A stretch of DNA of 64,000 nucleotides from a virus. Location: positions 1 to 64,000 of the IMG/VR virus record IMGVR_UViG_3300023273_000812; one strand, 5' to 3'. A program made the position numbers and the translations under genes. This document shows positions 15,677-46,119 of the stretch, piece after piece (positions within the stretch are counted from its first letter, which is position 1; every line of letters begins with the position of its first letter). A model generated the notes under the pieces. The model was not told the DNA's origin. It worked only from the letters and a program-made list of their open reading frames with translations, and did no database searches.

Positions 15677-16636
15677 TCATTCTCCTAACTCTAAATAATG
15701 TAAAACCATTTCTCTAACTTCATTAGATACTTCTAAGTTATTAATACTGTCGTGTAAAGTGTCTTCTGTTTTAGTGTTCAGTTGTTCTTGTAATTTGTGT
15801 ACAAAAGAATCCATCTCCATCTGTCTCTCTACTTGGCGTCTACGACCTTCCATATCAAACACTTGCTCTGGAGCCTTAACTTTTAAAGGCTTTTGTGTAC
15901 ATACCACACCTTCTTTTGTACATTCTATTAACACACAACAAGGTATACGATTAACTTCGTCTTCAGATAAAGAACCACGCGTTAATGAGCCTGTATTAAT
16001 AATAGTCTTATTACCTACTTGTGTAATACCTTGGTTCTTATGCCAGTGTCCAAAACAAAACACATCAGGCTCTAAGTCTTCTAAGTCACTATACTTAATA
16101 ATGTCTTCACCCTCAAACATGGTACCGCCTTTCTCACTGGCTAGTATATGGGCTACACATATTAGTATATCTTCGTTCCCTTTCTTTATATGTTCAAACA
16201 AAGACTTGTCATAACTAGGACCTGGATAAGGAACACCAACTACTCGTACTTTAAAGCCATCCTTTTCAAACACTACCTCATGTTCGTTATACAATCTTTT
16301 AAAGATACCTGTAGCATACAACACACCTAAAGGTTGTTGTGGTAGGAACTTATAATCTCCATACACACTGTCATGATTACCAGGGCAACAGTAAACGGGT
16401 ATCTTGTAATCAATATGGTGTTCACTTGTCTTAATAATAAGTTTATGAGAGTTTTTTGTAGGAGACTTAACATGAAAAAAGTCACCCCCATCTAAGATAG
16501 CCATTGCGTTATTTGTGTAGGCTATATCCCTAACTTGTCCTAGTTTTTCTAATACTGTATCATCCCAGTCATCTAAACGAGAACTAGGTTTATGATCAGA
16601 CATATGAACATCCGTTCGCCATACTAAGTTAATCAT
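15677..16636 (-). CDS. sbcD: SbcD/Mre11-like nuclease subunit
   Basis: A 319-residue calcineurin-like phosphoesterase with the Mre11/SbcD motif series: RTDVHMSD (D-x-H), DGGDFFH (GD), CCPGNHDS (GNHD), CVAHILAS (H) and CFGHWHK (GHxH). Together these bind two metal ions for DNA end cleavage. Residues 270-319 are helical and likely contact the Rad50 partner. I chose the ATG at 16636 (AAAGG upstream, overlapping the SbcC-N stop by eight bases); a start at 16666 would add ten residues without support. Coupling to the SbcC N-half directly upstream indicates an MR-type complex for end processing or recombination-dependent replication, as gp47/gp46 in T4. Confidence 0.92.
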   Translation of the reverse strand: MINLVWRTDVHMSDHKPSSRLDDWDDTVLEKLGQVRDIAYTNNAMAILDGGDFFHVKSPTKNSHKLIIKTSEHHIDYKIPVYCCPGNHDSVYGDYKFLPQQPLGVLYATGIFKRLYNEHEVVFEKDGFKVRVVGVPYPGPSYDKSLFEHIKKGNEDILICVAHILASEKGGTMFEGEDIIKYSDLEDLEPDVFCFGHWHKNQGITQVGNKTIINTGSLTRGSLSEDEVNRIPCCVLIECTKEGVVCTQKPLKVKAPEQVFDMEGRRRQVERQMEMDSFVHKLQEQLNTKTEDTLHDSINNLEVSNEVREMVLHYLELGE

Positions 16637-17801
16637 TGTGTACCTTTTTACATACAGGACATTCACCTAACTCACCAAGAGTATCCTGTATAAAACCTTG
16701 TACTTTATGATACTGTATCTCACACTCTTGTATAGAGTGTTGTTGTGTATTTATTTGTGTTTGTACACTCTTAAGTTGTTCACTTAACTTAAGTACTTTA
16801 CTTAAAGTACTTTGTATTTTTAATAACTTTGTACTATCTGGTAACTCTGGTATGTCTTGTTGATAAGTGTCCACTAAGTCCACACATTGGACATATCTAG
16901 TGTTTAAGGCTTGTACCCTTTGTATCTTACTTACAAGTTGTGTAAAGTCTGTTGTGGGTACTTGTACCTCTTTTAAACCACTATACTTATTCAAAGTACT
17001 TTTACAATTGTTTTGTCTTGTAAGTAGTTGTCCTACTTTAGTTAAACCTAAATGTAATCTTTCGACTTTACTTTTATCTGGTATTGTTAAACCTTCTAAG
17101 TCTTTATACTGTTCTACAACCTGTTTACAAGAGTTATACTTATCTTGTAAATCCTGTACTTGTGTAATTGTAGTTTGTATCTTTTGTAGTTTAAGTTGTA
17201 ACAGTTCCAAGCCTTCAAACATACTTTCAAGAGTATCAAAGCCTTTATACACTTGTAAGGCTTCTTCTTGTTTAACTAAGTCTTGTTCTCTTACTTTTAA
17301 CTCACTAGTTACAGATCGTTTATCCTTTTCCGCTAGCCTTAAAGCATTATTTAAACGACCTACCTTTTCAACATCAGATAAGGCTTCTCCTAATACAGCA
17401 CCTGTTTCGTTTACAAGAAATAAAGTTCCTTGGAACTGTTTTGCTATCTGTGGCCAGATTACAGTATTACCGGCTTGAATCGGTTTAACACCTAAATCAT
17501 TTAGTTCTTCAGGAACACCTCGTCCTACAGTTTCTAACTTATAACCATTAATAGTATAAGCGTTTACTTTAGGTCCCTTTTCCCAAGTTACAGTTTGACC
17601 ATCTTCAAACTCTAAGTCTACTGTTAACTGCTTCTGTCCATGACGAACTAAAGGGCCACTAGGAGAGTTTTCAAACACACCCCTAATAGCCCTCATTAAC
17701 GCCGTCTTACCAGAGTTGTTGGGACCTGTAACTACTGTTAGACCATTAATGTCTAGTGTTACATCTTTAAGGCTTTGGAAATTCTGTACTCTAACTTTCA
17801 T
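16629..17801 (-). CDS. sbcC: SbcC/Rad50 N-terminal half (Walker A, coiled coil, zinc hook)
   Basis: A 390-residue protein. Residues 1-150 form the N-terminal lobe of an SMC-like ATPase: MKVRVQNFQSLKDVTLDI, Walker A GPNNSGKTALM (about residues 26-36) and a Q-loop region. Residues 155-375 are coiled coil with three loose repeats. The protein ends six residues after a zinc-hook CPVC (C381, C384). There is no signature motif, Walker B or H-loop. Those lie in the separate plus-strand protein at 40818-41474, so the ATPase is split at the hook. SbcD/Mre11 follows with an eight-base overlap. The promoter-like motif at 17807-17838 is so close to the ATG that the transcript could be leaderless. Confidence 0.9.
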   Translation of the reverse strand: MKVRVQNFQSLKDVTLDINGLTVVTGPNNSGKTALMRAIRGVFENSPSGPLVRHGQKQLTVDLEFEDGQTVTWEKGPKVNAYTINGYKLETVGRGVPEELNDLGVKPIQAGNTVIWPQIAKQFQGTLFLVNETGAVLGEALSDVEKVGRLNNALRLAEKDKRSVTSELKVREQDLVKQEEALQVYKGFDTLESMFEGLELLQLKLQKIQTTITQVQDLQDKYNSCKQVVEQYKDLEGLTIPDKSKVERLHLGLTKVGQLLTRQNNCKSTLNKYSGLKEVQVPTTDFTQLVSKIQRVQALNTRYVQCVDLVDTYQQDIPELPDSTKLLKIQSTLSKVLKLSEQLKSVQTQINTQQHSIQECEIQYHKVQGFIQDTLGELGECPVCKKVHND

Positions 17802-36863: not shown

Positions 36864-38174
36864 TTATAATCTGTTAGCTGCAACCTCTGCTAATTCAGAT
36901 CTAACACCTTGAGTAAAGAATACTGTTCCAAAGATACTCTCCCCTAACATTCTTTGACTTACATAAGTAAGACCATTAGAGTGCTTGTCTAGGAATGGGC
37001 TATCTACTTGATACGGGTCACCCAATAAAACTACCTTAGTGTTTTCACCGGCTCTTGTAACAATAGTTTTAATCTCATGTGTTGTTAGGTTTTGGGCTTC
37101 GTCTATTACTATAAAAGAGTTGTCTAAAGAACGACCCCTAATAGAGTTAAGAGGTTGTACTACAACAGCCTCCGTATCTAGTAAGTACTTCCAGTTAGGT
37201 TCTTTCTTTTTACCTGTTCCTACAAAACTTTTAGTAGGCATAATCTTAGATAGATTGTCATAGTAACTAGCCATCCAAGGTTGTAATTTTTCGTCCAAGT
37301 CACCTGGTAAGAATCCAATAGAGTTGCCCATGTCTATAATAGGCTTCGCTAATATAATTTGTTCGTATTGAGTATGTAGTTGAGACAACGCGGCAGCTAA
37401 AGTTAAAAATGTTTTACCCGTACCAGCCTTACCTACAAGAGTTATAAGTTGGACTGTAGAATCTGTTAATAGATCCAAAGCCATTCTTTGTTCCAAGTTA
37501 CGAGCCTCAACACCTACATTAAACTCTTTATCCACCGGTATAACTTGGCCGTACTTATTTCTACATAGAATGTTTTTACCCATCCACTCAGAAATATAAA
37601 ACTGATTGTAAATAGGTTCTGGTACTAACTCTATAGGTTGAATGTTAGTTGTAGGGTTGTAGGCTTCCTTTAGAATAGGGTCCTCTCCTAAGTGTGTGTA
37701 ACCTGGGTACAAGTCTGCAACATCAACTTTGTCTGTTTCGTAGTCTTCCGCTACTAATCCTTGACCTTGACATAAGAGTCTAAGGTTAAGATCTTTAGAG
37801 ACTAGTACTACATGTTCGTATTGCTTTTTCATTTCTAAAGCACATTCCATAATCCACAGATCCATCTTTCTAGGATTAGTGGTAGACTGTAAAGCCTTAA
37901 TACCAATGTCTGAAGTTGTGCCTATAACTTTCACATTAATGTCTTCTTCTTGTAGGTAAACTCCTTTTTGTAAATCTTGGTCACCTTGAATGTCTTGTAT
38001 ATTTCTACTTGCCTCCCTAGACTTAAAACTAACATTAGTTTTCTTTCTTTCTTTTAAGTCATCCAGTTCTATGATTACAAAGATTGGGAGAGCAACATCA
38101 TTGCCTTTAAAGTTTGTAATACATTCTGGATCATGAATAAGTACAGATGTGTCTAATACATATAGTTTTCTCAT
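36864..38174 (-). CDS. phoH: PIN-PhoH ATPase
   Basis: A 436-residue protein from the ATG at 38174 (AGGAGGTACTTA upstream). Residues 1-150 are a PIN RNase domain (KLYVLDTSVLIHDPECI, IIELDDLKER, LVSKDLNLRLLCQGQG, with conserved acidic residues). Residues about 225-436 are the PhoH P-loop ATPase: Walker A GKAGTGKTFLTLAAA, ILAKPIIDMG and Walker B NSFIVIDEAQNLT, then VLLGDPYQVDSP. The fusion matches bacterial PhoH2-type RNA helicase/ribonuclease proteins. It may act in RNA turnover during infection. Single-gene minus transcript between two plus-strand blocks. Confidence 0.92.
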   Translation of the reverse strand: MRKLYVLDTSVLIHDPECITNFKGNDVALPIFVIIELDDLKERKKTNVSFKSREASRNIQDIQGDQDLQKGVYLQEEDINVKVIGTTSDIGIKALQSTTNPRKMDLWIMECALEMKKQYEHVVLVSKDLNLRLLCQGQGLVAEDYETDKVDVADLYPGYTHLGEDPILKEAYNPTTNIQPIELVPEPIYNQFYISEWMGKNILCRNKYGQVIPVDKEFNVGVEARNLEQRMALDLLTDSTVQLITLVGKAGTGKTFLTLAAALSQLHTQYEQIILAKPIIDMGNSIGFLPGDLDEKLQPWMASYYDNLSKIMPTKSFVGTGKKKEPNWKYLLDTEAVVVQPLNSIRGRSLDNSFIVIDEAQNLTTHEIKTIVTRAGENTKVVLLGDPYQVDSPFLDKHSNGLTYVSQRMLGESIFGTVFFTQGVRSELAEVAANRL

Positions 38175-38261
38175 TAAGTACCTCCTAGTACATAAACCAC
38201 ACAAGATAGAAAAGAAACTAAGTTCTGTGTGTATAATTAAGTGTTTATTTGGAGTGTGAAA

Positions 38262-38490: not shown

Positions 38491-39378
38491 GTGAATATAA
38501 AAAGTACATTGTTCTGGTCTCATTTAAAAATGTATGAAGACTGTCCTCAAAGGTTTCTTTGGACAAAAGGTTGGGATGGTATTGATGTAGGTGCTGGAGA
38601 GGGTAAACCAAAACCAGTTACTAAACCTACAAGTAGACATGCTGCTATTATGGGTATTGCTATTCATCACGCTATTGAGTTGTTTTATAATGATGAGATT
38701 TATCGTAACGGAAAAGGTGTTACAGATTTACTTTGTACACTAGCCACAGAAAAGTTTAACACTTTATGTGAAAAGTCTTTTATAGACTATGAGGAAGCCA
38801 AGTTAACTAAACAACAGATGTTAGACTTAGTTATTAATGGTGTTAAAGGGTTTGTACAGACTTGTAAACACAATAAATTACTAGGTACATATTCCAAGTC
38901 CGAAGTAAAAATGATAGCGTGGATTGACCAGTATAACAGTATTGGTGGGATTGTAGACATTGTTGTTCGAAGAGAAGACTGTGGTACTTTACTGTTAGAT
39001 GGTAAGAACAGTCGTATAAAAGAAAAGGTAGACGAGGATCAATTACACTTCTATGCTCTAGTGTATAGATACTCTTATAGAAAGATGCCGGACAAGTTAG
39101 GGTTCGTTTGGTTTAGGTATCCGTATGTAGAAAATACACAAGACACAGGTATTACTTGGGTAGATGTTAGTCAACAAAAGTTGGACGAGTTAATTACAAG
39201 GGTACAAACGGCTAAGAAAAGTATGTATAAGAAGAAGTTTAAAGCCAAACCTAGTAGAGATGCTTGTATCTTTTGTAATTATAAAGATCAATGTTCTGAA
39301 TACCAAGAAGGTGAGCAGTTAGTAGAGGGTATTAAAAAAGTACCAAAGAATAATGGTTTTGGAGATTTCTCCCTATAA
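38491..39378 (+). CDS. Cas4/RecB-like PD-(D/E)XK nuclease
   Basis: A 295-residue protein starting at GTG 38491 (GGGGGTGA upstream). It has the layout of RecB-family nucleases with a [4Fe-4S] cluster: C18 in YEDCPQRF, IGIAIHHAIE, GGIVDIVVRRED then LLLDGKNSR (catalytic D-x-K), DQLHFYALVYRY (Q/Y motif), and C259, C262 and C268 in CIFCNYKDQC. Cas4-like enzymes in phages act in DNA end processing and recombination. It precedes the sliding-clamp operon. There is no CRISPR locus in the window. Confidence 0.88.
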   Translation: MNIKSTLFWSHLKMYEDCPQRFLWTKGWDGIDVGAGEGKPKPVTKPTSRHAAIMGIAIHHAIELFYNDEIYRNGKGVTDLLCTLATEKFNTLCEKSFIDYEEAKLTKQQMLDLVINGVKGFVQTCKHNKLLGTYSKSEVKMIAWIDQYNSIGGIVDIVVRREDCGTLLLDGKNSRIKEKVDEDQLHFYALVYRYSYRKMPDKLGFVWFRYPYVENTQDTGITWVDVSQQKLDELITRVQTAKKSMYKKKFKAKPSRDACIFCNYKDQCSEYQEGEQLVEGIKKVPKNNGFGDFSL

Positions 39379-39420: not shown

Positions 39421-39684
39421 ATGACTACGGAAGACCGGTTAAACAAAGCCATTAAGTTAAGAGAAACTTTATCCTCAGACTTACAAAGAATGTTAGGAAA
39501 GAAACAAGCCGCAGAACAGTCTTTATTAAAAGTCGAACAAGAGATAAGAGACGCTAACTTAGATCCCAACACTTTACAAGAAACTTTAACAAAGTTACAA
39601 CAAGCCCTTGAACAAACATTAAGTGAGTTCGAGGCTCAACTCAATCTAGTACAGGATAAAATGTCCTTATATACGGAGAAATAA
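39421..39684 (+). CDS. Small coiled-coil protein
   Basis: An 87-residue protein that is almost entirely heptad-repeat helix (LRETLSSDLQRMLGKKQAAE, LLKVEQEIRDANLDPNTLQE). AAGGAGG precedes the ATG and the stop overlaps the clamp start (TAATG). No cysteine or catalytic motif. It opens the operon with the beta clamp and SbcC C-half. It may interact with either, for instance as an extra coiled-coil arm for the split SbcC; that is speculation. Confidence 0.75.
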   Translation: MTTEDRLNKAIKLRETLSSDLQRMLGKKQAAEQSLLKVEQEIRDANLDPNTLQETLTKLQQALEQTLSEFEAQLNLVQDKMSLYTEK

Positions 39685-40817
39685 TGAAAATTGAAGTCGC
39701 AAGAAATGATTTAGAGTTCTCTCTAAATACTACCAGAACAGCTGTAGGTAACGGTACAGACATTACATCACACTACCTGTTTCGTGTACATAATAATAAA
39801 GTAGAAGTTCTTTCCCAGAACTTAAGAGTGTTTAGTGGTGCTCCAATTATTTGTACCTTTGAAGGTGAAGAGGGCGATGCTTTTACAGTGGAATCTTGGC
39901 GTTTAGATAAGTGGTTGTCCGGTGCTTCAGATGGTGTGTTAACACTTACTTATAATGGTGGTGGGGATGTACAAGCCAAGTCCGGTCGTTCCTCTATTCG
40001 TTTAAGATCTTTAGATCCTAGTAAGTTTCCTTTTTGGGATAAGTTAATGTCTACGGCTACTACTGTTGGAAATATTGCCCCTGAAAAGATTACAAGGGCT
40101 TTAAATCTTACTAAGAACTTTGTTAGTACAGACGACACACTTAAACCAGAATTGTGTCAAGTAGAATCTATTGATGGTACATTTTGGGCTACAGATAGAA
40201 AAGGTGTGTGTAGTGCAAAAGTTCCTATGGGTGACTTGAACATTCGTATTCCTGCTAAAGACATTACTCCAGTAACAAAGTTCTTGGGTAATGAGGATTC
40301 TGTTGAAGTGTTAACATCTACTCGTGAAGATGATAGTGGTTCTTGTGTATTGTTTAAGAAGGAAACAGGTCACTACTTAGGTGTTACTAAGCCTGTTACA
40401 CAGTTTCCGACCTTGGCTTTAGATCCAGATAAAGTGCCAGATTGTACAGTTAGTTTGGATATGGACGAGTTAACAGCAGGTTTGGCTGTCTTGTCGGCTT
40501 CTGCTCCTAAAGGTCATGAGAGTGTTACTTTCCGTTGGGATAGTGAGAATCAAAAGGTGGTTTTGTCAATGCCAAGTGTTGCCGGTGGCAATGATGAGTA
40601 CCCTCTAAGTTTGGCTGGACTTACAGTACATAGTAAAGAGTTCGAAACTTTTACTATCGACTATCCGTACTTGAAAGGTATTGTTAACGCTTTTGGTTTA
40701 GATAAAATTGATCTTGGTGTTAATAGTATGGGTCGAGCAGGTTTTACATCTTTTAAGTATGAAGAAGAAGTAGAAGAAGGAAACTCATACTACGCTGTAA
40801 TTGTATGGAGAACTTAA
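39684..40817 (+). CDS. dnaN: DNA polymerase III beta-type sliding clamp
   Basis: A 377-residue protein, the usual beta-clamp length, with three repeated domains of DnaN type: NDLEFSLNTTRTAVGN, VESWRLDKWLSG, VQAKSGRSSIRLRSLDPSKF, FVSTDDTLKPELCQV and GTFWATDRKGVCSA, and YPYLKGIVNAFGLDKIDL near the C-terminus. It would ring DNA and tether a polymerase. Phages of the T4 type use a trimeric clamp of about 230 residues; a bacterial-type dimeric clamp here fits the presence of delta, delta-prime and DnaX. One-base overlap with the upstream gene and adjoining the SbcC C-half. Confidence 0.85.
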   Translation: MKIEVARNDLEFSLNTTRTAVGNGTDITSHYLFRVHNNKVEVLSQNLRVFSGAPIICTFEGEEGDAFTVESWRLDKWLSGASDGVLTLTYNGGGDVQAKSGRSSIRLRSLDPSKFPFWDKLMSTATTVGNIAPEKITRALNLTKNFVSTDDTLKPELCQVESIDGTFWATDRKGVCSAKVPMGDLNIRIPAKDITPVTKFLGNEDSVEVLTSTREDDSGSCVLFKKETGHYLGVTKPVTQFPTLALDPDKVPDCTVSLDMDELTAGLAVLSASAPKGHESVTFRWDSENQKVVLSMPSVAGGNDEYPLSLAGLTVHSKEFETFTIDYPYLKGIVNAFGLDKIDLGVNSMGRAGFTSFKYEEEVEEGNSYYAVIVWRT

Positions 40818-41474
40818 TTGTCTACTTATGATCAATTAATGTTTGTGTATAAGGGCTTAAGGGAGGATTACATCCGAACAAAAGCCCTTATTGATACACA
40901 TAAAAAACAACATGAAGAGTTGTTGGAACAAGTTTTAGATCTAAAACATCGAACAGATATATTAGATAAAACTTGTTCTGTTCTTCGTGGTTTAATTGAC
41001 CATGAAATGGTAGCCAATATAACAACAGCGGAAACATTATTAACAGAAGGATTACAACATATCTTTGACGACTTAAATCTAAGTGTACGAGCGGACACTA
41101 GTATACAAAGAGGTAAAGTGTCTGTAGACTTTGTAACAGTACAAGAACATACTACTGGCATGATAACAGAAGGTAGTTCTATGGATGTTTATGGTGGTTC
41201 TGTATCTACAGTACAATCCACTCTACTAAGGATTGTTGTACTAACAAGAAGAAGTTTACGACCTTTATTGTTATTGGATGAAAGTTTATCGGCAGTGGCT
41301 GAAAGGTATGTTCCAAGAGTAGGAAACTTTTTAAGAACACTGTCAGAAAAGTTAAACTTAGACATTCTAGTGGTAACACATAATCCAACATTAGTAGAGC
41401 AAGCGGATGTTGCTTATAGGATTAAAAAAATAAAAGGTTCGGCTACTTTCACAAAAATAGGGCGTTCACAATGA
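40818..41474 (+). CDS. sbcC: SbcC/Rad50 C-terminal half (signature, Walker B, H-loop)
   Basis: A 218-residue protein starting at a TTG at 40818 (TGGAGAAC upstream, directly after the clamp stop). Residues 12-75 are coiled coil. The rest is the C-terminal lobe of an SMC/Rad50 ATPase: signature YGGSVSTVQ (126-130), Walker B LLLLDESLSAV (150-160, D154, E155) and H-loop VVTHNP (H188). There is no Walker A and no hook cysteine pair. It is complementary to the N-half at 16629-17801 on the other strand. The coiled coil is much shorter than in the N-half, so pairing geometry is unclear. The operon also holds the clamp and zinc proteins. Confidence 0.87.
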   Translation: MSTYDQLMFVYKGLREDYIRTKALIDTHKKQHEELLEQVLDLKHRTDILDKTCSVLRGLIDHEMVANITTAETLLTEGLQHIFDDLNLSVRADTSIQRGKVSVDFVTVQEHTTGMITEGSSMDVYGGSVSTVQSTLLRIVVLTRRSLRPLLLLDESLSAVAERYVPRVGNFLRTLSEKLNLDILVVTHNPTLVEQADVAYRIKKIKGSATFTKIGRSQ

Positions 41475-42402: not shown

Positions 42403-43113
42403 ATGAGAGAGTGGTTGTTAAACGCTATTAAGGATTTAACCTTACCGGAAGAAGCTTTAGGTTATGTTTTAGGTAGAGGTTTACCTTATACACTTGTACA
42501 GGAACTAAAAATAGGTGTGTGGAAAACACAAACGGAAAGAGCCCCAGACTCGGACTTTCATACTAATGGTGTGATGGGTCATCGTTTACATGGTATGTTG
42601 TGTATTCCTATCTACTCTCCTAGAGGTGTGTTAATAGGCTGTGAGTTTCGTAATATGGAAGAGAAACTTGTTCGTAAGTATTACTTACCTGATGTTAAGT
42701 GGAATCCAGCTTTTGTAGGTATGTGTCCTAGTGTGTTTGAAGGAATTTGTAAGGGTTATGATGTGTGGTTGGTAGAAGGTGTGTTTGATCTAAGTATCCT
42801 AAAAGCCTTACCTAAAAATCATGTGTGTCTAGCGATGGGTGGTGCTAGAGTAACTCCTACACAAGTAAAGTTCTTACAAAGGTTTATACGACCTAAGGCT
42901 ACTGTACATATATGTTTTGATATGGATGAAACAGGTAGAAAGTTAAGTGCTGGATATAAAAATGATCAGGGAAAACTAATTTGGGGTCTAAAACAGAAAC
43001 TGGATACAGTACATATAAACACTAGGTTGGTTACTTACTTTGGAGGTAAAGATCCTGGTGAAATATGGGAAAGTGGTGGAACACTAGCCCTTAAAAAATC
43101 CTTTAACTTATAA
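42403..43113 (+). CDS. DnaG-like Toprim primase (no zinc domain)
   Basis: A 236-residue protein. Toprim motifs: VWLVEGVFDLSILKAL (catalytic Glu) and HICFDMDETGRK (DxD). The N-terminal about 100 residues (LGRGLPYTLVQELKIGVWKT, LCIPIYSPRGVLIGCEFRN) match the DnaG RNA-polymerase-domain N-lobe. The CHC2 zinc finger and helicase-binding domain of full DnaG are missing, so zinc recognition may be supplied in trans by the protein at 41471. It would make RNA primers at the phage fork. Four bases follow the upstream stop. Confidence 0.87.
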   Translation: MREWLLNAIKDLTLPEEALGYVLGRGLPYTLVQELKIGVWKTQTERAPDSDFHTNGVMGHRLHGMLCIPIYSPRGVLIGCEFRNMEEKLVRKYYLPDVKWNPAFVGMCPSVFEGICKGYDVWLVEGVFDLSILKALPKNHVCLAMGGARVTPTQVKFLQRFIRPKATVHICFDMDETGRKLSAGYKNDQGKLIWGLKQKLDTVHINTRLVTYFGGKDPGEIWESGGTLALKKSFNL

Positions 43114-44748: not shown

Positions 44749-46119
44749 ATGGCTTTAGACACAAAGTACAGACCACGAAATTATGTAGATGTTTTAGGAC
44801 AAGAATCTAGTACTGCTGTTTTAAAACAGTTTGTGAAAGAAGGAAAAGGCTTTCACCAGTCTTATGTGTTTTGTGGTCAACATGGTTCTGGTAAAACAAC
44901 AATGGGTCGTATTCTAGCCCGTGCTTTATTGTGTTCTAATCCTGTAGAAGGTGAACCTTGTAATGAGTGCGAATCCTGTAATACCTTTCTAAGTGGTGGT
45001 GTACACGCTAACTTTGAAGAGTTAGATGCTGCTACTAGATCAGGTAAGGCTGACTTAGCACAAATTATAGAAGAACTTAACTACGCTTCCTTTTCAGGTA
45101 AAAGAAAGATTTACTTGTTCGACGAGTCCCATCGTTTATCTAAACAGGCCTTAGATGCGTTATTAAAACCGATGGAAGACACAATAGAAGGAAGTGAAGA
45201 CAAAAGACTTATCTGTATTTTCTGTACAACAGAACCAGAGAAAATGGTATCTACTATCTTCTCTAGATGTGCTCCAGCGTTTGTTATTAAAGCCGTAGAC
45301 GCAGAAGGTATTGCTGAACGATTGGCTTATGTGTGTGAACAAGAGAGTATTAACTATACTATAGATTCCTTAGTAACAATAGCGGAAGTAGCAGAGTGTC
45401 ACATTAGAGACTGTTTAAAAATGGTTGAAGGTGTGTCTATGTTAGGGGACATTAATAAGCAGACAGTTACTCAGTACTTACAGATAGGTGCTAATGATTA
45501 TATTGTGGACACACTTTTAAACATTGGTGTGGATCTAAATCAATGTGTACAGAATACAGATTTACTATCTAAAGAAGTTTCTCCAAGTGTTGCATATGAA
45601 AGATTAGCAGATTGTTGTATGGTGGCTTATCGTAAGTTTTTAGGTGTGGGTAAAGTTCCTAAACAATGGGAGGAGTCCAAGATAGAGGAACTATCTAAGA
45701 AGGGTGAACAGTTATTAACATTGTCTATGAAGTTTGCTGCTCCAATACATAAACCTAGTAAACAAACATTGGTGTTAGATATAGCAATGTGTCATTATGG
45801 AGATAAGTTCCAAGTCCCAGATAATTGTGTTACAATAAACTTTAATAACAGTGGTGCTAAATCTTCTACTAATGAGCATAAAAAATCAACAGTAGAAAAG
45901 ATAAATGTAAGTAATATACAAAGTGAGGTTGTTAAAACAGACAAGCCAGTAAAGGGTCAGGTAAGTCAGTCTTTAACTCCTACAGGTGTCTGGGTAGACC
46001 CTAGAGCCATAAAAAGTATAAATACACAAAAAAGAATCACTAACGGGTTAGCACCTAATGAGTTTAGATCGATACTACTGTATCATCTGCGGAGACAAAT
46101 AGATGGAGAGAGATGGTAA
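44749..46119 (+). CDS. dnaX: DNA polymerase III gamma/tau-like clamp-loader ATPase
   Basis: A 456-residue AAA+ protein. N-terminus LDTKYRPRNYVDVLGQ is the classic DnaX start; Walker A CGQHGSGKTTMGR (about 43-55), a zinc module (C-x8-C-x2-C-x2-C in LCSNPVEGEPCNECESC), Walker B KIYLFDESHRLS, and sensor/arginine finger TIFSRCAP. A collar domain and a linker of about 100 residues (370-456) follow; this may bind a polymerase or helicase as tau does. AGGAG precedes the ATG. With delta, delta-prime and beta it completes a bacterial-type clamp loader. Overlaps the NusG-like gene by 17 bases. Confidence 0.93.
   Translation: MALDTKYRPRNYVDVLGQESSTAVLKQFVKEGKGFHQSYVFCGQHGSGKTTMGRILARALLCSNPVEGEPCNECESCNTFLSGGVHANFEELDAATRSGKADLAQIIEELNYASFSGKRKIYLFDESHRLSKQALDALLKPMEDTIEGSEDKRLICIFCTTEPEKMVSTIFSRCAPAFVIKAVDAEGIAERLAYVCEQESINYTIDSLVTIAEVAECHIRDCLKMVEGVSMLGDINKQTVTQYLQIGANDYIVDTLLNIGVDLNQCVQNTDLLSKEVSPSVAYERLADCCMVAYRKFLGVGKVPKQWEESKIEELSKKGEQLLTLSMKFAAPIHKPSKQTLVLDIAMCHYGDKFQVPDNCVTINFNNSGAKSSTNEHKKSTVEKINVSNIQSEVVKTDKPVKGQVSQSLTPTGVWVDPRAIKSINTQKRITNGLAPNEFRSILLYHLRRQIDGERW

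Follow-up and report, generated by a model that had tools for sequence, protein, structure and literature searches.

Is Rad50, generally seen as a single chain with two arms that have to be equally long, pair lengthwise and meet at a zinc hook between them, encoded as two separate polypeptides in some viruses? The question is raised by the IMG/VR virus record IMGVR_UViG_3300023273_000812, of which positions 1 to 64,000 were analyzed here (this stretch of 64,000 nucleotides is referred to as the window). In the window, a gene resembling the first part of Rad50/SbcC lies beside the gene for a partner nuclease, SbcD (Mre11), and a gene resembling the last part lies far away, behind the gene for a sliding clamp; to our knowledge, the Rad50 of every known organism is one continuous chain. 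We consider it very probable that these two genes, called the N-half and the C-half in what follows, specify a Rad50/SbcC that is naturally divided and acts together with its own SbcD, and that an ATP-binding cassette (ABC) head is formed only when N-half and C-half come together.

Complementary motifs in the two genes

The N-half gene (16629..17801, minus strand) begins with ATG and encodes 390 residues, comprising the N-lobe of an ABC head, a long helical arm and a C-terminal CPVC motif. Walker A (GPNNSGKT, residues 26-33, 17703..17726) and the Q-loop region (WPQIAKQF, residues 116-123, 17433..17456) are followed at the far end by C381 and C384 of the CPVC (16650..16661, like the other two motifs on the minus strand). 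The protein ends in ...GECPVCKKVHND, with a tail that reads CPVC-KKVHND, and our reading of this open reading frame agrees with an earlier note on this DNA, which had placed the end six residues past the cysteine motif. No signature, Walker B or H-loop was found in the 390-residue N-half. As that note had also proposed, the C-lobe motifs occur instead in a 218-residue protein on the other strand, 23 kb off: the C-half gene (40818..41474, plus strand) starts 23,017 bases past the N-half gene, with a TTG directly after the clamp stop codon, and encodes a long helix and the C-lobe of an ABC head. It carries a signature-like YGGSVSTVQS (residues 125-134, 41190..41219), a Walker B motif LLLLDE (residues 150-155, 41265..41282) and H188 of the H-loop (41379..41381), within VVTHN, all on the plus strand; no Walker A was found in the 218 residues.

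The motif residues are conserved on both sides. Across 45 homologues of the N-half, G26, N28, G31 and K32 of Walker A and P117, A120 and Q122 of the Q-loop region are invariant, as are D154, E155 and H188 across 31 homologues of the C-half. The pattern C381-P-x-C384 is kept in 45/45 aligned N-halves, and a CxxC stands 3-21 residues before the C-terminus in 67 of 69; since only 11 of 4,810 control frames have a CPxC within their last 28 residues, the terminal motif is not a product of chance, and we regard it as a candidate zinc hook. Both the Rad50 N-lobe features (Walker A, Q-loop) and the C-lobe features (Walker B, H-loop) were found. Database models place the N-half in AAA_15/AAA_23 (Pfam) and in phrog_16465 (“exonuclease”), and the C-half in phrog_15167 (“ATPase”, E 5e-19). 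Models of defence ATPases (Lamassu LmuB, MADS mad3, AriA) match the N-half as well, mainly through its head; no defence gene context was seen, the N-half and C-half genes belonging to a replication/recombination module that also includes SbcD, clamp and primase.

Predicted structures point the same way. The C-half model has a mean predicted local distance difference test score (pLDDT) of 91 and a predicted template modeling score (pTM) of 0.72, with a helix at residues 2-82 followed by lobe II, and the N-half model places helices at residues 144-184, 188-232, 243-274, 285-314 and 323-376 before the CPVC. Foldseek paired the N-half model with 1f2u_A, 1ii8_A, 3qkr_A and 9a9j_A, and the C-half model with 1f2u_B/D, 1ii8_B, 3qkr_B and 9a9j_B, so that within each of these Rad50 crystals the two models fall on complementary chains. 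We take these four entries to be N- and C-fragments of P. furiosus Rad50 present as separate polypeptides, which is consistent with the chain lengths shown, and such two-chain crystals therefore provide a precedent for assembly in trans. The complementarity of motifs, their conservation and the fold matches, together with the co-occurrence and gene order described below, directly support a split Rad50. Sequences and models strongly imply that N-half and C-half would assemble into one ATPase, and by analogy with the known family we infer that the halves would assemble, that hooks may pair and that ATP may drive control of the nuclease.

Distribution and gene order

A full-length sbcC elsewhere in the genome, which the earlier note had named as the observation that would tell against a split, was not found in the whole record of 101,749 bases, possibly not a complete genome, which holds one N-half and one C-half. 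Within this record the SbcC family phrog_77 matches nothing but the first part of the N-half and the last part of the C-half, region 298-403 of the family aligning with the N-half and region 885-951 with the C-half of the same genome. A profile search of IMG/VR with the N-half gave 56 contigs, 44 of them with a real N-half, and exactly one C-half is present in 37 of the 44; the other seven, which have none, are mostly short or carry the N-half near a contig end. The corresponding C-half search gave 98 contigs; the 80 retained fall into 61 groups at 90% identity (the first alignments were too diverse for scanning the collections, and closer subsets were taken). Neither a full-length SbcC nor a fused N+C gene was present among 37 contigs of 100-619 kb, nor was a fused gene among the 61 C-half groups, and an N-half was found in all 18 records searched for one. 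The co-occurrence of separate halves in related phages, which the earlier note had suggested looking for, is thus borne out, and with motifs, co-occurrence and lack of fusion in agreement its central claim stands: one Rad50 head is encoded as complementary polypeptides, one by SbcD and one behind the clamp.

The split is also evident in named phages. Separate N-half and C-half genes occur in the uncultured megaphage LR745208 and in three cultured phages, namely in Tunturi_5 (at 126.9 and 19.1 kb, on opposite strands), in Magritte (at 93.8 and 0.3 kb) and in vB_BboS-125, where two genes lie between them. The more distant Microcystis phage Mvi-JY20, likewise cultured, has the order N-half, SbcD, a 94-residue protein and C-half; this stretch (L194:5653-8480) is a compact operon with overlapping genes, all annotated as hypothetical proteins. 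In bacterial and archaeal genomes, sampled at one per species, a close C-half was detected on only two metagenome-assembled contigs, and the split pair therefore looks like a virus module. It is the rule in a large group of bacterial viruses, well beyond the window.

The usual order, on one strand, is N-half, SbcD, PDDEXK nuclease, a hairpin protein of about 90 residues, sliding clamp, C-half and primase, and it is collinear in 61/61 groups. In every group the clamp gene stands directly upstream of the C-half on the same strand, abutting or overlapping it; the N-half lies inside the fetched flank in 53 of the 61 and SbcD is present in 55, its link with the split Rad50 being one of gene adjacency. 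From clamp stop to C-half start the distance in N-half-anchored loci runs from -19 to +20 bases, often -4, -13 or -19, a spacing as expected for translational coupling, and this conserved overlap is the sole feature that suggests a coupling of the system to replication. The window is a rearranged member of the group: 23 kb separate the two blocks of its module, with N-half and SbcD in a leftward arm and nuclease, hairpin, clamp and C-half in a rightward arm. The wide separation emphasized in the earlier note is real in the window, but since most relatives keep one co-directional block, both the distance and the opposite strands reflect a local rearrangement. At two other loci (L188, L189) the nuclease-hairpin-clamp-C-half block is kept, with the N-half far off and no SbcD within about 5 kb, and in two distant relatives (L200 and L201, on contigs G064 and G065) the N-half stands alone, its surroundings of about 5 kb containing neither SbcD nor clamp nor C-half.

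The remaining module genes of the window can be placed accordingly. The SbcD/Mre11 nuclease is annotated at 15677..16666 (minus strand), although the ATG near 16636 is more likely its true start, because relatives begin with M..LVWRTDVH; from there it would overlap the N-half gene by about 8 bases. The plus strand carries the PDDEXK (Cas4/RecB-type) nuclease at 38491..39378, a predicted helical-hairpin protein of 87 residues, the candidate third piece of Rad50, at 39421..39684, the DNA polymerase sliding clamp (processivity factor, phrog_947) at 39684..40817 and, as the downstream part of the conserved module, a Toprim primase at 42403..43113. Just before the nuclease-clamp block, on the opposite strand, lies a PIN domain fused to a PhoH-like ATPase (36864-38204), and a clamp loader (44749-46119) is encoded a few genes downstream of clamp and C-half. 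Some relatives carry inteins, which commonly insert within functional active-site motifs: in SbcD they lie just before the conserved GHWH metal-site motif (L062:11236-13467, the same as L156:4785-7037, and L065:11567-13699), and in the N-half at Walker A, after GxNNSGK (L168:3355-5601 and L076:4603-6726). Hint and LAGLIDADG domains were detected in the N-half intein of L168, and a LAGLIDADG domain was confirmed in one of the SbcD inteins as well.

Arms, hook and competing explanations

The arms depart most clearly from what is known of Rad50. The earlier note had described a split at the zinc hook, and the N-half does end near its CPVC; there is, however, no clean cut at the apex, the return arm of the coil being missing and the N-arm varying while the C-half is fixed. 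The coil of the C-half measures about 60 residues and the arm of the N-half 200-330. N-halves range from 347 to 484 residues (two intein-bearing ones excluded) and C-halves from 205 to 222, and their lengths are uncorrelated (r=0.007, n=53, the two intein-bearing N-halves included). Judged by eye, N-arm length shifts by single helix-plus-loop units of about 45 residues, giving four, five or six helices. It follows that the C-half cannot be the partner of the distal N-arm, for which three arrangements are left: folding back on itself, pairing with the other head's N-half, or recruiting a different protein. The hydrophobic periodicity of the arm does not tell a dimer from a bundle.

Several results weigh against an identification as Rad50. 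Equal antiparallel coil arms were not found; with the return arm absent and arm lengths varying independently, the architecture differs from that of known Rad50. The N-half model (pLDDT 78, pTM 0.34) is good in the head and weak in the arm, and the similarity of its CPxC region to the Rad50 hook structure 1l8d is likewise weak, a hook-only profile reaching that entry at E 0.32 only. The signature ascribed to the C-half in the earlier note is present as a GG motif, but its form in the family is [FY]GG[AS]V and not SGGE: against the canonical SGG(E/Q), GG is invariant and the serine position is F, Y or M in 31/31 aligned C-halves, a replacement, mostly by F or Y, that one would expect to impair ATP sensing in an ordinary Rad50. 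In Magritte and vB_BboS-125 this position is R. The mirror-tree correlation for Nhead-C is 0.63, a value reached in 0/2,000 permutations; as several other gene pairs of the module correlate just as strongly, it is not diagnostic. Since neither the single-chain form nor paired arms nor the signature serine was found when looked for, the system is not canonical Rad50/SbcC; it resembles that family in its head, its hook-like end and its SbcD context, and split variant is the most fitting name for it.

Could another protein supply what the arm lacks? It is possible, though we hold the idea only tentatively, that Rad50 here consists of three pieces, the hairpin protein joining the two halves to rebuild the arm and serving in it as the missing return strand or as a brace. 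Its gene precedes clamp and C-half in 59 of the 61 groups, in vB_BboS-125 a homologue (E 4e-9) is flanked by N-half and C-half, in Mvi-JY20 a weaker one (E 1e-3) by SbcD and C-half, and the first helix of the hairpin protein resembles the N-terminal helix of the C-half (profile probability 79%, E 1.7e-5) far more than the N-arm (6.5%). Yet similarity between coiled coils is easily spurious, the hairpin family is nearly fixed in length (85-108 residues) though the N-arm varies, the match beside a half in Tunturi_5 is marginal (E 0.002), and beside the C-half of Magritte no match was found. The case for a role as a piece of Rad50 is suggestive only. The hairpin protein of the window also has a weak match to phrog_18563.

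The other alternatives fare worse. Were the N-half to act with SbcD and the C-half to be a clamp-associated regulator in a machine of its own, this would suit the genomes in which the genes are distant or on opposite strands (the window, Tunturi_5, Magritte, G064 and G065) and the position of the C-half, which keeps its place next to the clamp in the window and at loci L188-L190. However, each half lacks the motifs of the other, and conservation of all of them makes little sense if they do not share one active site; the two halves also co-occur throughout, and we regard two separate machines as improbable. Joining of the halves after transcription or translation, by trans-splicing, a split intein or read-through, appears more improbable still: full inteins are indeed present in some N-half and SbcD genes of the group, but a tail of only 3-21 residues follows the CxxC of the N-halves. 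Trans-splicing, split intein and intron were rejected, no Hint domain having been detected in the halves of the window and no Rfam intron in the window, and a read-through fusion of clamp and C-half was rejected because the in-frame stop/TTG junction of the window is not conserved in phase, the offset varying over the range given above. Least probable of all is a decayed or mis-assembled sbcC; split genes often signal decay and the parts lie far apart in the window, but the reading frames are intact and the catalytic residues invariant over about 60 divergent groups and several cultured phages, and this conservation contradicts a pseudogene or an assembly error.

For a split Rad50/SbcC we propose the following mechanism. 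The N-half would give lobe I, with Walker A and Q-loop, and an arm that has the putative CPxC hook at its end, while lobe II, which holds the signature, Walker B, the D-loop and the H-loop, would come from the C-half and sit on a short coil; two such N+C heads sandwiching ATP, with two SbcD, would form a complex of the Mre11-Rad50 type, in which pairing of hooks would join two N-halves at their C-termini. In T4, gp46/47 process DNA ends for recombination and recombination-dependent replication, and the complex may do the same for phage DNA ends. More tentatively, the hairpin protein could be part of the complex, and the coupled genes of clamp and C-half could fix how much C-half is made or where at the replisome it acts. 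A fuller version, with four or more chains (N-half, hairpin, C-half, SbcD), an arm made by the N-half only and closed by a C-terminal CPxC hook shared by two N-halves, lobe II delivered through a lasting link to the clamp, and head assembly gating end processing at the replisome, seems to us unlikely as a whole.

Relation to known systems and implications

With Rad50/SbcC and Mre11/SbcD as found in E. coli SbcCD, archaeal and eukaryotic Mre11-Rad50 and T4 gp46/gp47, the phage system has in common a Rad50/RecF/SMC-type ABC head with Walker A and B, Q- and H-loops, a helical arm, a CxxC as candidate hook and an adjacent gene for the partner nuclease. Unlike canonical Rad50, the phage version consists of two polypeptides with the return arm cut to about 60 residues, its CxxC stands at a C-terminus and not between two arms, the signature serine is replaced by F/Y, and the C-half gene abuts or overlaps that of the sliding clamp. 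The P. furiosus constructs (1f2u, 1ii8, 3qkr, 9a9j) likewise make one head from N- and C-lobe chains, but they are laboratory-made and without full arm and hook, whereas the phage split is natural and its N-half keeps a long arm and the CxxC. The families phrog_16465 and phrog_15167, which contain the N-half and the C-half and are both represented by separate genes in vB_BboS-125, carry no link that would mark them as the two parts of a single protein. Phage enzymes made of separate chains have been described for multi-subunit RNA polymerase and a split DNA polymerase III alpha, sometimes from distant genes (Iyer et al., 2021; PMC7824862); the passages found there treat phage SbcC as an ABC ATPase, mention no split of it and contain no split SbcC/Rad50. 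No report of a split Rad50, SbcC or SMC protein was found in the searched literature, which included few subscription papers, so that for these the absence is weak evidence.

A conserved Rad50 in parts would show that continuity of the chain and a full return arm are dispensable, and would offer a small, separable system for asking what arm, hook and lobe II each do. The clamp-linked gene order makes a link between DNA-end processing and replication testable, and two phage families at present “unknown” or vaguely named would gain a joint function.
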